A DNA stretch of 44,276 nt, taken from assembly GCA_028708805.1 (NCBI GenBank), contig JAQVYC010000006.1:1-44276 (forward strand), written 5' to 3'. The translations under genes were made by a program, and so were the position numbers. This document shows, piece after piece, positions 12,529-27,584 of the stretch (the stretch's first letter is position 1; every line of letters begins with the position of its first letter). A model generated the notes under the pieces. That model ran no database searches. It was not told the origin of the DNA and saw only the letters and a list, made by a program, of their open reading frames with translations. This DNA comes from Clostridia bacterium (GTDB lineage: Bacteria; Bacillota; Clostridia; Christensenellales; UBA1242).

Positions 12529-13800
12529 CTATTTCGCAAAAATTTCACAAATTTTGTTTTTCAACTTATCAATATTTATATTTTTTTTTGCGGATATAAA
12601 AATTTCATTTTCTAAGATTTTATGTTTATTAAAATCATCACTTAAAACTTTATCTTTGAGAATTCCACCATCTTCAAGAGTTTCACCAACTTCATAATTC
12701 CCCTTGCTTTCCAGAACACCCTTTCCCTTTAATATGCCCCTTCTTTCTCGGAAGTCGCCTATATTAATAATTCCGTTATTATTTATTTTCTTTTCCATAA
12801 ACTTTTCTAACACATCACTTTTGTTATACACAATAATTTGTGGAATATTCTCAGCCCCAATTTCTTTTAGTGTGTTGTTTACAACTTCAATTTGCTTTTC
12901 ATAATTTTTATTTGTAGCATCTACTAAATGCAATATTAAGTCTGCTTCCAAAACTTCTTCCAGAGTTGAAGCAAAAGCGTCTATAAGTGTGTGTGGAAGT
13001 TTGCTAATAAAGCCAACAGTATCCGTTAAAATTATTTGCAATTCGGAGCTAAGCCAAATACTTCTGCTCGTTGTGTCTAGTGTTGCAAAAAGCTTGTCAT
13101 CTGCGTAAACTCCTGCTTTTGAAATAACATTCAAAAGTGTACTTTTGCCAGCATTAGTATAACCAACTATTGCAATATTTTTCTTATTTCCTACTCGCCT
13201 TTGTTTGCGTTTTAGAATCCTTTGCTCTTTAACTTTTGCAAGCTCTTTTTTTAATTTGATAATTTTATTTTCAATAACCCTGCGATCTAATTCTATTTTT
13301 GTTTCTCCCGGACCTCTCATTCCAACACCGCCCGCACCAAACCTGCCACTTGTGCCTATAAGGCTTGAAAGCCTAGGCAATGAATATTTAAGTTGTGCAA
13401 GTTCAACTTGGAGCTTGCTTTCCAAAGATGTTGCCCTTAATGCAAATATATCTAAAATTAATCCGACCCTATCCAAAACCTTAACTTCTAAGATGTCTGT
13501 TAAATTTTTAATCTGAGAACCAGAAAGCTCACAGTCAAAAACAACTACATCGGCACCGCTTTCATCAATTTGCTCTTTTAACTCTAAGACCTTTCCTGAG
13601 CCGATTAAGGTTGCAGGAGTTATTGCCCTAACCAATTGATAATCTTTACCTACAACAACCAATCCAGCAGATTCTGCCAATCTTGAAAGCTCATTCAAAG
13701 AATAAATTACATCATCTTTATTATCAAAAATCACGCCCATTAAAAAAGATTTTTCAACCTCTTGCTTTGTTTGATGTGTCTTCTCTTTATCAAATTTCAT
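12529..13800 (-). CDS. hflX: HflX ribosome-associated GTPase with an odd insertion
   Basis: A 423-aa GTPase that in other bacteria splits stalled or hibernating 70S ribosomes. The N-terminal HflX domain (about residues 20-110, DVVVFDCELSGSQIKNL) and the linker with SGRFGAGGVGMRGPGETKIE precede the G domain: G1 GYTNAGKST (about 212-220), G3 DTVGFISKLP, G4 NKSD, G5 SAKK. Between G4 and G5 there is a poorly conserved insertion of about 60 residues with repeated Gly-Ile/Val-Leu-Lys/Glu units (RRGILKGK, KGVLESKG, GGILKDK). No Shine-Dalgarno is present; a perfect consensus promoter lies so close that the mRNA should begin at the start codon (see findings). The VUT-like gene follows. Confidence 0.95.
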   Translation of the reverse strand: MKFDKEKTHQTKQEVEKSFLMGVIFDNKDDVIYSLNELSRLAESAGLVVVGKDYQLVRAITPATLIGSGKVLELKEQIDESGADVVVFDCELSGSQIKNLTDILEVKVLDRVGLILDIFALRATSLESKLQVELAQLKYSLPRLSSLIGTSGRFGAGGVGMRGPGETKIELDRRVIENKIIKLKKELAKVKEQRILKRKQRRVGNKKNIAIVGYTNAGKSTLLNVISKAGVYADDKLFATLDTTSRSIWLSSELQIILTDTVGFISKLPHTLIDAFASTLEEVLEADLILHLVDATNKNYEKQIEVVNNTLKEIGAENIPQIIVYNKSDVLEKFMEKKINNNGIINIGDFRERRGILKGKGVLESKGNYEVGETLEDGGILKDKVLSDDFNKHKILENEIFISAKKNINIDKLKNKICEIFAK

Positions 13801-13807
13801 AGCTTAT

Positions 13808-13836
13808 ATTATAATACAAGCTAGAACATTTGTCAA
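13808..13836 (-). promoter_or_regulatory. Consensus promoter positioned for a leaderless hflX mRNA
   Basis: On the minus strand TTGACA (13836-13831), N17, TATAAT (13813-13808), then 7 bases and the ATG (13800). The canonical +1 falls at 13801, one base before the ATG. No SD-like purine run occurs between promoter and ATG. Confidence 0.8.
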
Positions 13837-13929: not shown

Positions 13930-13970
13930 AATAAAAACACTTCACTTTTAAAAAGTGAAGTGTTTTTATT
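13930..13970. terminator. Strong terminator between the lipoprotein gene and hflX
   Basis: Nearly perfect dyad AAAAACACTTCACTTTT / AAAAGTGAAGTGTTTTT flanked by T-runs on both strands. It ends leftward transcription from the lipoprotein gene 20 bases after its stop and insulates hflX. Confidence 0.9.
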
Positions 13971-13990: not shown

Positions 13991-14674
13991 TTAGCCTGCA
14001 TTATTAGTCAAGATTTCGCCTGAATTCACATCTATAACTAAGTTTAATTTATTATTGTCTGTTCCGATAATTCCAAAATACCAAAAATAGCTATCAAACT
14101 CTGAGTTCTCGTCATATATGATTTTTAAATAGCATTCTGCTTTAAATTTCTTGTTTTTTATAAATTGTTTAGCCTGTTCCATAAAATGTTCCGATGCAAT
14201 ATTTAAAGCATCTTCATATTGCACTGACCAACTTTTACTTACACAAATCATTAAAAGCTCACTTTCAACGCCGTCTATTGTTAAGTATACATTAGAATTA
14301 TCTTCTACGATTTTTTCAATATCCGCCATAAAATTATGCCCAAACGGATTTTTTTCTACATTACCATAGTGCCCAACTCCATCCACAATTAAAGTAAAAG
14401 CAATTTCATTTATTTCTGGCATATCTGCAAAATCAACTGTTATAACACCAAACTCACATTTAGGATTAGAAACACCATTATAACCATAAGGCTCTTCTCT
14501 AAGCCCACACATTAATGTAACTTTTAAGTCATCTGTTTTAGCTTCAAATAAGTTGTAACGCACATCGGAAAGATTTTTAATCATTTCGTTTTTTATATCA
14601 CTTCCACAGCCTGTTAAAAAAAATATGCAACAACACACCAAAAGCATAACCATAGTTTTTTTAATTGTTTTCAT
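13991..14674 (-). CDS. Predicted lipoprotein with a PepSY-like C-terminus
   Basis: A 227-aa protein with a clear lipoprotein signal: MKTIKKTMVMLLVCC, then the lipobox LTGC at about residues 20-23, so it should be anchored outside the membrane. I do not recognise the main domain. The last 40 residues (FWYFGIIGTDNNKLNLVIDVNSGEIL) resemble the end of PepSY-type domains (beta strands ending in a D-x-x-T/S-G-E-I motif). No SD is visible before the ATG; the upstream TGGCATATA extended -10 leaves the ATG at about +2, so it may be a fifth leaderless gene, though it has no -35. It stands alone, with a strong terminator behind it. Confidence 0.75.
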   Translation of the reverse strand: MKTIKKTMVMLLVCCCIFFLTGCGSDIKNEMIKNLSDVRYNLFEAKTDDLKVTLMCGLREEPYGYNGVSNPKCEFGVITVDFADMPEINEIAFTLIVDGVGHYGNVEKNPFGHNFMADIEKIVEDNSNVYLTIDGVESELLMICVSKSWSVQYEDALNIASEHFMEQAKQFIKNKKFKAECYLKIIYDENSEFDSYFWYFGIIGTDNNKLNLVIDVNSGEILTNNAG

Positions 14675-15068: not shown

Positions 15069-17741
15069 TTAGTCGCCAAACAGCTTTCGAACCATATCAT
15101 AAGACACAATTTGTACCATTGTTCTGCTCATTGGCCCTGTTATTAAAAATGATTGACCAACACCAGCGGTAACAATAGAGTTTTGTTCTTCTTCGTTTAT
15201 TTCTCCTGACTTACGGTATAGCTCAACTAAGTCATTCATATCATTCGGAGCTAGCGAAAATATAAATGAATACTGGCTGGCATTGATAACCGCCGTTGAC
15301 TGTCTTTGAATTTCCACCGAACCAACAAAGTCTTTTATGTTCTGTGTAATAATTATTTGCATCCCAGTATACTTACGAATTCTTTTAGCCATTTGCGCCA
15401 TAAAGTCTAGGGCTATTGGATAGTTAGGGTTAATAAAAACATGGGCCTCATCAACCGCTACAATAATTTTTCGTTTTGTGTTAAATTTTAAATTGAAATC
15501 ACGGTTTTTAATAATTTCGTTATCTAAATATTTAAACACCATAAGCATTTGAGCATTAGCTATAATTTCGTTTCTATTAGCTAATAATGAACGAAAATTA
15601 AAGCACACAAAATTTTCCTTTGTGCTTATTGAGGTTGGTCCATTCCAAAGATTTGAGTTTCTTCCACCCTTAACAAACTTTTTAATATAAGTTTGAACAG
15701 TTATTAAATTTCGTCTGTGATATTCGTCTTTTTCCTTATCTAATTTTTCTGAAACAAGCATATCTAAATCGTCAAAAACTGGATAATCTTTCGGCTTTAA
15801 TTTGAAAAACAATGAATTGCTGTTTATGCCTTTTTTATGATATAATTCAACAATTAAACTATTAAGTGTTTCAAACGCATCGGGATTAATTCCTACTAAA
15901 ATCGTCTTGAAAAATTGCTCTAAAAATTGAAGATGCACAGAAAAAGTGTCGGAGGTTTCCGTTTCTTTGTTAAGTTCGCTTTCAACATCTTCAACTTCTT
16001 CTATTTCTAGAATATCATCTTTTAATGATGTGATTATGTGAAAAGGATTAAATATACCCATTTCGGAAGAACCAACATCAATAAACTTACCGTTAAGATT
16101 TTTACATAAAGTTGTATATTCATTTTCAGGGTCAAGAATGAAAATTTTAGCATTATCGGCAGCAAAATTTGCAAGTAATGTTTTTGCGGCAAAAGACTTT
16201 CCTGAACCAGATTTTCCTATAATCATCATATTACTGTTAACTCTTTCTCTATTACGAACGAAAAAGTCTACAAAAACGGGATATTCATTATACCCTATGT
16301 AAATACCGTTGTCATCTTGCAAGGCTCCTGAGATAAACGGAAAAACAGCCGCTAGTGTTGAAGTTGGAATGCCTCTTAATGTGTCTTTAACATTATCTCT
16401 CATTGAAATATTTGAACTTACAAAAGCATCAACCTGTCGCCCAAACATTTCTGAATATCTAAAACCTTCCTGTTTTAAAATTGCCCTAACTTCCTTCCTT
16501 GCAGGCTCTTCACAAGTTACAAAAGTATTGACATTATATAACTGCTGATTGTTGTTTTTTAAACCGACTAACAAATCTTTTAATGTGTCTAAGTGAGTTT
16601 TGTTTTCAATTTGCCTTGAACTTCTAGTAACCTTATAAAGCTTACTTTCCATTTCAATAATTGACTTGTCTAACAGCTTTTCGGCCTCAAATTTAGGAAT
16701 TGGCTTTATTTTTGTTACGACCTTTGTTCTGTCTAGCAAATAAAAAGGTGCACCCCACGCATTAGGTACTTGCAAAGGGTAATCTGACACAACAAAACTT
16801 CTGTATGGTTTTCCGTCTATTTGAAATCGGCTTGCTTGAAATCTTATTTTTTGAGGGATTGCCCAGTTTAAATGCTTTGACATTGGTATAACTTCAAGCT
16901 CTCTTTCATCAAACTCTTTCCCATAATTTGCCCTTAAAAACACATAAAGGTCTTTACCGTATAATTTTTCTGTATGAAGTGGTGTTGGCGAATTAGTTAA
17001 AGTTGTCATCATACCGTTTGTTGTTGTTTCTAGCATTTCACGGTCTTTATCATATACTACAATATAAAAATGGTCTTTAAATATTTTATCTTCTCTGTTA
17101 TATGCCTCCATTCTGGAAACTCTTTCTTCAAAAATTCCCGTACGCCTTTCTATTTCTTTCTGTGTTATTTGGTCTTCATACTGTAATTCCAAAAGATTAT
17201 CATATTTTTTATCTTCGTTATAAATATATTCATCTAAAATCATTGCTTTGCTAATTTTAACAATTGAAGCCATTTGGTCATTCGAAAGTCGCCTTATGGC
17301 ATTAGCAAATGTTTCAACAAGCATATTTTGTTTATATTCGTTTAACAGCCCGAATTCAATCGGAAACACTTCAATAACTTGTGCATAATATTCACCAAAG
17401 TCTATAAAACGGTCTTGATTCAAACCAACAAAGGGAATGATTTCAGTCATTGATGAATATCCCTTAATGTTTTCTTTTGAATATTTCTTTCGCTGAGCAA
17501 AAAACCTTAAAATATAACCCAAGGTATAATAAAGCCGTGTGTCATCAGCAACATGAAAATACATTGAAACAATTATAGTAACCCATGCAAATCCAATCCA
17601 GACCCCTAAATTGTTGGCAAAATTACTTGTAAATAATGAAATGGCAACCGCCGTTCCAATTAATGCCAAAATTATATCACCAAGGGTAATACCCTTGACA
17701 AACTCCATTTTTACTTTGGTTTTTCTAGGAATAACTCTCAT
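15069..17741 (-). CDS. VirB4/TraC-like type IV secretion ATPase with PrgI-like N-terminus
   Basis: An 890-aa protein. Residues about 14-65 form two hydrophobic segments resembling PrgI-type membrane modules that are fused to VirB4 in Gram-positive systems; a central VirB4 N-domain follows; then the ATPase core with Walker A GKSGSGKSF (about 508-516), ILDPENEY, Walker B IIVAVDEAHVF (about 757-767) and IIITQNIKDF (sensor region). In conjugation systems this ATPase powers secretion-channel assembly. Here no relaxase, coupling protein, VirB6/VirB8 or peptidase gene is nearby, so it is an orphan between a lipoprotein gene and divergent spoVG. An Asp/Glu/Ser-rich insert (about 585-605) interrupts the core. 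No SD; a promoter abuts the ATG (leaderless candidate). Confidence 0.88.
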   Translation of the reverse strand: MRVIPRKTKVKMEFVKGITLGDIILALIGTAVAISLFTSNFANNLGVWIGFAWVTIIVSMYFHVADDTRLYYTLGYILRFFAQRKKYSKENIKGYSSMTEIIPFVGLNQDRFIDFGEYYAQVIEVFPIEFGLLNEYKQNMLVETFANAIRRLSNDQMASIVKISKAMILDEYIYNEDKKYDNLLELQYEDQITQKEIERRTGIFEERVSRMEAYNREDKIFKDHFYIVVYDKDREMLETTTNGMMTTLTNSPTPLHTEKLYGKDLYVFLRANYGKEFDERELEVIPMSKHLNWAIPQKIRFQASRFQIDGKPYRSFVVSDYPLQVPNAWGAPFYLLDRTKVVTKIKPIPKFEAEKLLDKSIIEMESKLYKVTRSSRQIENKTHLDTLKDLLVGLKNNNQQLYNVNTFVTCEEPARKEVRAILKQEGFRYSEMFGRQVDAFVSSNISMRDNVKDTLRGIPTSTLAAVFPFISGALQDDNGIYIGYNEYPVFVDFFVRNRERVNSNMMIIGKSGSGKSFAAKTLLANFAADNAKIFILDPENEYTTLCKNLNGKFIDVGSSEMGIFNPFHIITSLKDDILEIEEVEDVESELNKETETSDTFSVHLQFLEQFFKTILVGINPDAFETLNSLIVELYHKKGINSNSLFFKLKPKDYPVFDDLDMLVSEKLDKEKDEYHRRNLITVQTYIKKFVKGGRNSNLWNGPTSISTKENFVCFNFRSLLANRNEIIANAQMLMVFKYLDNEIIKNRDFNLKFNTKRKIIVAVDEAHVFINPNYPIALDFMAQMAKRIRKYTGMQIIITQNIKDFVGSVEIQRQSTAVINASQYSFIFSLAPNDMNDLVELYRKSGEINEEEQNSIVTAGVGQSFLITGPMSRTMVQIVSYDMVRKLFGD

Positions 17742-17748
17742 AATAATT

Positions 17749-17777
17749 ATTATAGCTTAAATAATAAAAAAAATCAA
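17749..17777 (-). promoter_or_regulatory. Promoter positioned for a leaderless virB4-like mRNA
   Basis: On the minus strand TTGATT (17777-17772), N17, TATAAT (17754-17749), then 7 bases to the ATG at 17741; canonical +1 is 17742. No SD precedes this ATG or the next in-frame one (17708). Confidence 0.75.
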
Positions 17778-22984: not shown

Positions 22985-23159
22985 ATTATCCTCCATTTTT
23001 ACATATTTTAACAATTTAATCTATTTTTGTAAAGTAAAATTAAATTAAGGGCATTAACCTATTAAGTTTAATTTCTTTTGTTAATTTGTAGTAAACTTGA
23101 ATTTTGGCTAATAAAATTATAATAGTTGGCTTTTAACTAGATTGAGGAGATTTATAAAT

Positions 23160-26324: not shown

Positions 26325-27584
26325 ATGAAAATCTTTATTCCTGAGAAATTAATAGAATTAGCAGATATGCTAAAAAAACAAGGTACTTTATATATTGTTG
26401 GTGGTTATGTAAGAAATGCCATATTGGGCTTTGCTGATACTGACATAGATTTAACTGCGGGAATTACTCCTGAAAAGATAGTAGAATTGTTAAAAGATAG
26501 CGAATTTGAAGTTATTGAAAAGTCTTATAAACTTGGAACTGTTACAATTAAATGTGATGACCAAATTTGGGAGTATACCACTTTTAGAAAAGACAACTAT
26601 GCTTCGGGTGGATATCACCGACCTAAAAGCGTTGATTTTATAGAAGATTTACGACAAGACGCTCAACGGCGAGATTTCACAATGAATGCAATTTATTATG
26701 ATATTTTAAAAAATGAAATAATTGATATTTATTCTGGGGTATTAGATATAAAGAATAGAATCGTTCGCTGTGTCGAAACACCATCTTATGTTTTTGCACA
26801 TGACGGATTGAGAATTTTGAGAATGATTCGGTTTGCTTGTGAACTAAATTTTAAAATTGACCACTCTACATTTATAGCCGCTAAAAAAATGGCTCATCAA
26901 ATAAACTTCATTTCAGGTTTTAGAAAATATTTAGAGCTTACCTCTATTTTAAATTCGTCCAAAAGATATTCTATTTCTAAAAAAGACGCCTATTTAACAG
27001 GGCTTAATTATTATAATGAACTTCGAATTTGGAATTCTCATTTTGTTCCAAGTAGTAAAGTGAGATTAAATATGAGCAAAAAGGTTGGCTGTGAAAATGC
27101 TTTCTACGGTTTGCTGATTGATATTATAGACACAGTAAACCCGCCTTGTGTTGAATATTTTATAAATGATTTGTTAGACCAAAAAGGCTTTCAACTTGTC
27201 CCCGACACAGTTAAATATTATAATATGGTTATATGTGGCTATTATGACGCTTTAAATAAACTTAACAATAAAAAGTATTTTTATAAATATTTCAATTATT
27301 TCAATAAAATTGGTGAAATCCTTCCGCTTAAAAGCAAAATATTATATGCGAAATATAAGTTTTTTTACGATTATATTATAAAACATAAACTGCCTATTAG
27401 TTTAAAAGAATTAAATATAAGCAAGGCCGATTTGAAGAAAAACTTGCCTGACCTTTCGCCAAAAAAATATGAAACAGTGCTTTATAATGCTTTAATAAAA
27501 GTGTTTGACGGTTTTATTAAAAATGAAAAAAATGCCATCTTAGAGGAAATTAAAAATGATGTTAGAAATGATAATAATAATTAG
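26325..27584 (+). CDS. cca: CCA tRNA nucleotidyltransferase (class II)
   Basis: A 419-aa enzyme adding or repairing the CCA end of tRNA. N-terminal catalytic domain: YIVGGYVRNAILG (about residues 22-34), DTDIDLT (metal-binding DxD), then FRKDNYASGGYHRP, RRDFTMNAIYYD (ribose/NTP selection) and the neck LRILRMIRFACEL. The C-terminal half is divergent, helical, and lacks an HD phosphohydrolase motif. A poly(A) polymerase of the same class cannot be fully excluded. The conserved N-terminus means the ATG at 26325 must be the start, yet it has no SD and its promoter ends six bases upstream. rmuC overlaps its 3' end by 29 bases. Confidence 0.93.
   Translation: MKIFIPEKLIELADMLKKQGTLYIVGGYVRNAILGFADTDIDLTAGITPEKIVELLKDSEFEVIEKSYKLGTVTIKCDDQIWEYTTFRKDNYASGGYHRPKSVDFIEDLRQDAQRRDFTMNAIYYDILKNEIIDIYSGVLDIKNRIVRCVETPSYVFAHDGLRILRMIRFACELNFKIDHSTFIAAKKMAHQINFISGFRKYLELTSILNSSKRYSISKKDAYLTGLNYYNELRIWNSHFVPSSKVRLNMSKKVGCENAFYGLLIDIIDTVNPPCVEYFINDLLDQKGFQLVPDTVKYYNMVICGYYDALNKLNNKKYFYKYFNYFNKIGEILPLKSKILYAKYKFFYDYIIKHKLPISLKELNISKADLKKNLPDLSPKKYETVLYNALIKVFDGFIKNEKNAILEEIKNDVRNDNNN

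Follow-up and report, generated by a model that had tools for sequence, protein, structure and literature searches.

The hflX locus

The window, that is, the whole stretch of 44,276 nucleotides analysed here, carries hflX on its minus strand (Table 1). The ORF matched TIGR03156, a curated equivalog model, well above its cut-off of 217 bits, and the domains of HflX were present in their order, GTP-bdg_N, GTP-bdg_M and MMR_HSR1. An insertion of about 45 residues (residues ~330-373; 12682-12813, minus strand) lies between G4 (NKSD) and G5 (ISAK) of the protein; five relatives lack it, and the sampled genome holds no other copy of its DNA. The upstream gene is a lipoprotein-like ORF for which profile searches returned no family match. 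Between it and hflX lies a hairpin followed by a T-rich tail, which is probably a terminator that would limit read-through into hflX. A search for structured RNA in the window gave no Rfam match.

Table 1. Features at the hflX start and upstream of it
Feature	Position	Strand	Basis
hflX, 423-aa GTPase	12529..13800	minus	TIGR03156, 418 bits; PF13167, PF16360, PF01926
hflX start codon ATG, without SD upstream	13798..13800	minus	sequence; N-terminus aligns with relatives
7-nt discriminator ATAAGCT	13801..13807	minus	sequence; +1 at 13801 or 13800 as suggested by spacing
-10 hexamer TATAAT, 17-nt spacer from -35	13808..13813	minus	sequence; among the genome's 16 perfect sites
-35 hexamer TTGACA	13831..13836	minus	sequence
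Hairpin then T-rich tail, between upstream gene and hflX	13930..13970	minus	fold -21.1 kcal/mol, z -8.3
Lipoprotein-like ORF upstream of hflX	13991..14674	minus	similar gene before hflX in G005 and G001

A consensus promoter abuts the hflX start codon

Read on the minus strand, the region upstream of hflX consists of TTGACA, 17 nucleotides, TATAAT and ATAAGCT, followed directly by the ATG, and holds no SD. An earlier, sequence-only reading had described a perfect consensus promoter next to an SD-less hflX start, and our analysis bears this out; the span given for it, 13800-13836, correctly runs from the -35 hexamer through the A of the ATG. The pattern TTGACA-N17-TATAAT occurs at 16 sites in the 926-kb genome, compared with none for the reversed pattern, while arithmetic from base composition (29.7% GC) predicts about one perfect site for the genome and about 0.05 for a window. 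The hflX promoter is also the only 12/12 match of the sigma-70 type between 10 and 18 kb. The perfect site is therefore more than a chance occurrence.

An in-frame TAA at 13806-13804, inside the discriminator, lies two codons upstream of the hflX ATG, so that the ATG at 13800 is the 5'-most possible start. From the spacing, +1 can be T13801 (discriminator position 7) or A13800 (position 8). RNA polymerase usually prefers a purine at +1, and the A of the ATG is therefore the favoured position. The sequence-only reading had placed +1 one base before the start codon, which is possible, but the purine preference favours A13800 itself. The hflX mRNA is predicted to be leaderless, or to carry a single leader base, with the A of the ATG as the most likely +1.

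Initiation mode of hflX in relatives

Eight genomes of the genus contain hflX; one of these is G004, whose contig starts within hflX. G005 (77% identity) and G001 (75%), the two nearest relatives, have the -10 box 7 and 9 nucleotides from the ATG and lack an SD; their hflX promoter sequences have diverged, and the short spacing is retained. In three congeners hflX is preceded by an SD (AGGTG in G007, AGGAGG in G002 and AAGGAGG in G003), and G006 has neither an SD nor a promoter. The leaderless layout is thus kept in the two nearest relatives and not kept in four further congeners, in all four of which the upstream translation suggests ndk as the gene before hflX. Across the loci of this genus (f1/g1; L010-L017 and L200), the three species with leaderless hflX (G000, G005 and G001) have a lipoprotein-like gene before it, and the four others compared (G002, G003, G006 and G007) an ndk-like gene. 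Since the neighbour differs between the leaderless and the other species, the change of initiation mode accompanies a change of neighbour.

The congeners also bear on where translation of hflX begins. An internal start, for example at the ATG of codon 21 (13740), would give the mRNA a leader of about 60 nucleotides, and a GAGG does lie upstream of that codon; the GAGG is, however, 16 nucleotides from the ATG, too far for an SD, and an internal start would cut a conserved FLxGV strand. The N-terminal segment moreover aligns with that of relatives, G007 for instance, whose hflX begins at this point after an SD. We regard an internal start as scarcely credible, ruled out by the alignment together with the SD distance.

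We extended the comparison to the 71 hflX loci of the family, which represent 28 genera. The leaderless layout is seen at 21 loci and a clear SD at 36; the remainder are unclear. The 21 comprise 19 scored by script and two read by hand (L134 and L135, genus g36), which the script had scored as weak SD on account of an AAGG that runs into the beginning of the -10 region and which we counted as leaderless. They fall in eight genera: g1 (3/7), g5, g12 (1/4), g13 (5/5), g18 (4/5), g19, g34 (3/4) and g36 (3/4). Predicted leaderless expression of hflX is, on these sequences, a labile and recurring trait that switches with SD-led expression among genera. The sequence-only reading had proposed looking to relatives for conserved spacing, and a short -10-to-ATG distance without an SD is indeed shared by the two nearest relatives and recurs in seven other genera; the SD and longer leader that it had set against its proposal are found in G007, G002 and G003, but not in the nearest relatives.

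In 42 of the 118 family genomes, several of them near-complete, there was no hflX match at E 1e-40; the small genomes of this family (f1) may have lost hflX repeatedly.

A genome- and family-wide class of leaderless-type starts

In a 398-kb sample of the genome, the first ATG of each of 313 ORFs was scored as leaderless if a promoter of at least 9/12 had its -10 box ending 5-9 nucleotides before it. Such abutting promoters precede 19 of 114 non-SD genes, compared with 1 of 199 SD genes. The leaderless-type genes of this genome include uvrC, tsaD, alaS, truA and ruvX, as well as genes for an S1-domain protein, a pyrimidine-nucleoside phosphorylase and a CCA-enzyme-like protein.

A sample of 924 gene starts, drawn from 16 family genomes, gave a sharper picture. 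The -10 box ends exactly 6 nucleotides before the ATG in 37 of 326 non-SD genes, as opposed to 1 of 598 SD genes; among non-SD genes the background is about 2 at most other distances. The corresponding distance in hflX is 7 nucleotides. Promoters lie at 3-9 nucleotides in 2 of the 598 SD genes and are otherwise placed from about 14 nucleotides upward, since a leader with an SD needs room. This contrast between SD and non-SD genes provides an internal control for effects of base composition. In total, 51 of the 924 starts (~5.5%), belonging to genes of varied function, are of the leaderless type, a figure that derives from parts of genomes, a simple consensus count for promoters and first-ATG guesses, some of which are probably not true starts. 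Of the 51, 45 belong to the 653 starts that have no same-strand gene close upstream. A genus-wide pattern search constrained by the ATG was kept out of these statistics because ATG is common by chance in AT-rich DNA. The 16S rRNA retains the full anti-SD (GGATCACCTCCTTT).

It was conceivable that the TAA of TATAAT, acting as a stop that defines the first ATG, had generated the 6-nucleotide peak as a frame artefact. The peak, however, does not lie in frame with this TAA, and it is missing from SD genes, on which the same bias acts.

The explanation that we favour, with a probability of roughly 0.87, is that the main (sigma-A-type) RNA polymerase transcribes hflX from the abutting promoter, starting at the ATG or one base before it, and that the resulting leaderless mRNA would be translated by recognition of the start codon at the 5' end rather than by SD pairing. 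hflX would then be one instance of a second standing initiation mode in this small-genome Clostridia lineage, used mainly by genes that stand alone or come first, with varied housekeeping functions and a -10 box about 6 nucleotides before the ATG, alongside an SD in most other genes and an anti-SD retained in the 16S rRNA. It is also conceivable that hflX is expressed with a longer leader, whether by read-through or from an upstream promoter not seen here, with an SD-less start at 13800 and a minor role for the abutting promoter; many non-SD genes in the sample do lack an abutting promoter, so that SD-less leaders may exist. Nevertheless, we consider this highly unlikely, given that the abutting promoter is a full consensus match, that the hflX strand contains no other promoter-like site of at least 9/12 between the hairpin and the gene, that the hairpin should limit read-through and that the spacing is kept in relatives despite diverged promoters.

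Leaderless expression and HflX function

The sequence-only reading had suggested that leaderless expression could be functionally linked to the action of HflX on 70S ribosomes. In its strongest form, translation of hflX would rise as unsplit 70S ribosomes accumulate and fall as HflX splits them; HflX synthesis would sense the unsplit 70S pool through leaderless initiation, and self-control by this feedback loop would be why hflX turned leaderless in several genera. Both ingredients exist, in that HflX acts on 70S ribosomes (work cited in PMC6310831) and leaderless mRNA can bind 70S ribosomes directly (PMC5397173), and leaderless hflX recurs in eight genera. The same layout, however, is found on many unrelated genes of the genome and the family, at least 51 of them of varied function in our samples, and about half of the family hflX loci (36/71) have an SD instead.

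For a more direct comparison, we chose three genes that are leaderless in the same genome, uvrC, truA and alaS, and traced each through its 30 best family relatives. The leaderless layout was found in 13/30 for uvrC, 14/30 for truA and 5/30 for alaS, compared with 14/32 for hflX; these counts come from related genomes, not independent events, and indicate similarity of behaviour, not a rate. Two of the three matched genes thus come close to hflX in their leaderless frequency, and the leaderless mode proved neither specific to hflX nor clearly commoner in it than in comparable genes. Because the frequencies of uvrC and truA are similar, hflX behaves like two genes without a ribosome-splitting role. 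A search of the literature outside subscription journals found no paper tying leaderless expression to hflX. The proposed link thus finds no support in the comparison with other genes, and feedback control of this kind seems very improbable; we infer that the leaderless mode has no HflX-specific purpose.

Comparison with known leaderless genes

In bacterial leaderless genes of the 'TA-led' type, the Pribnow box precedes the start codon by about 12 bp (Zheng et al., 2011; PMC3160421). According to that survey, they occur in many bacterial genomes including Lactococcus (Bacillota), change mode between orthologues and are linked to operon position. hflX likewise has a -10 box that places +1 at or near the start codon, and no SD. 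The class described here resembles the TA-led genes in its TANNNT box at the same distance, lack of an SD, occurrence in first or single genes and mode switching of orthologues. It differs in its narrow -10-to-ATG spacing, with a mode of 6 nucleotides, and in coexisting with a majority of SD genes; the hflX lineage is apparently outside the survey. We conclude that hflX is a genuine case of a predicted leaderless gene and that it belongs to a genome-wide class whose kind is already known.

Within the Clostridia, mapped 5' ends in Acetobacterium bakii identified 11 leaderless ORFs among about 1,100 (PMC6239172). As in our lineage, leaderless ORFs started by ATG stand beside mostly SD-led ones; our fraction of sampled starts (~5.5%) is higher and is a prediction from sequence, whereas theirs rests on mapped ends. 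Listeria hflXr (lmo0762), like hflX a gene of the Bacillota for a ribosome-splitting GTPase of the HflX family, is preceded by a leader that contains a 14-aa uORF and an attenuator (PMC6310831). In contrast, no leader is expected for hflX here, and attenuation of the hflXr type would therefore not be available to it.

hflX offers a clean example of a predicted leaderless gene. Of wider use is that a family of small-genome Clostridia appears to have a genome-wide leaderless class, with narrow -10-to-ATG spacing, beside its SD genes. Programs for gene calling that look for an SD may put leaderless starts in the wrong place, and this family lends itself naturally to following orthologues as they switch between leaderless and SD modes.

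Other leaderless-type starts in the window

Three further starts in the window came out of the leaderless scan. A 227-aa ORF at 22996 (minus strand) is leaderless by its first ATG, but ATGGAGGATAATATG supplies an SD for its second ATG, and it is probably a false positive. At 26325 (plus strand), a weaker promoter abuts the SD-less ATG of a CCA tRNA nucleotidyltransferase-like gene. A gene for a VirB4-like conjugation ATPase (15069-17741, minus strand; best model NF045975, below its cut-off) has the same layout as hflX at its start (17741-17777, minus strand), TTGATT-N17-TATAAT-AATTATT-ATG.
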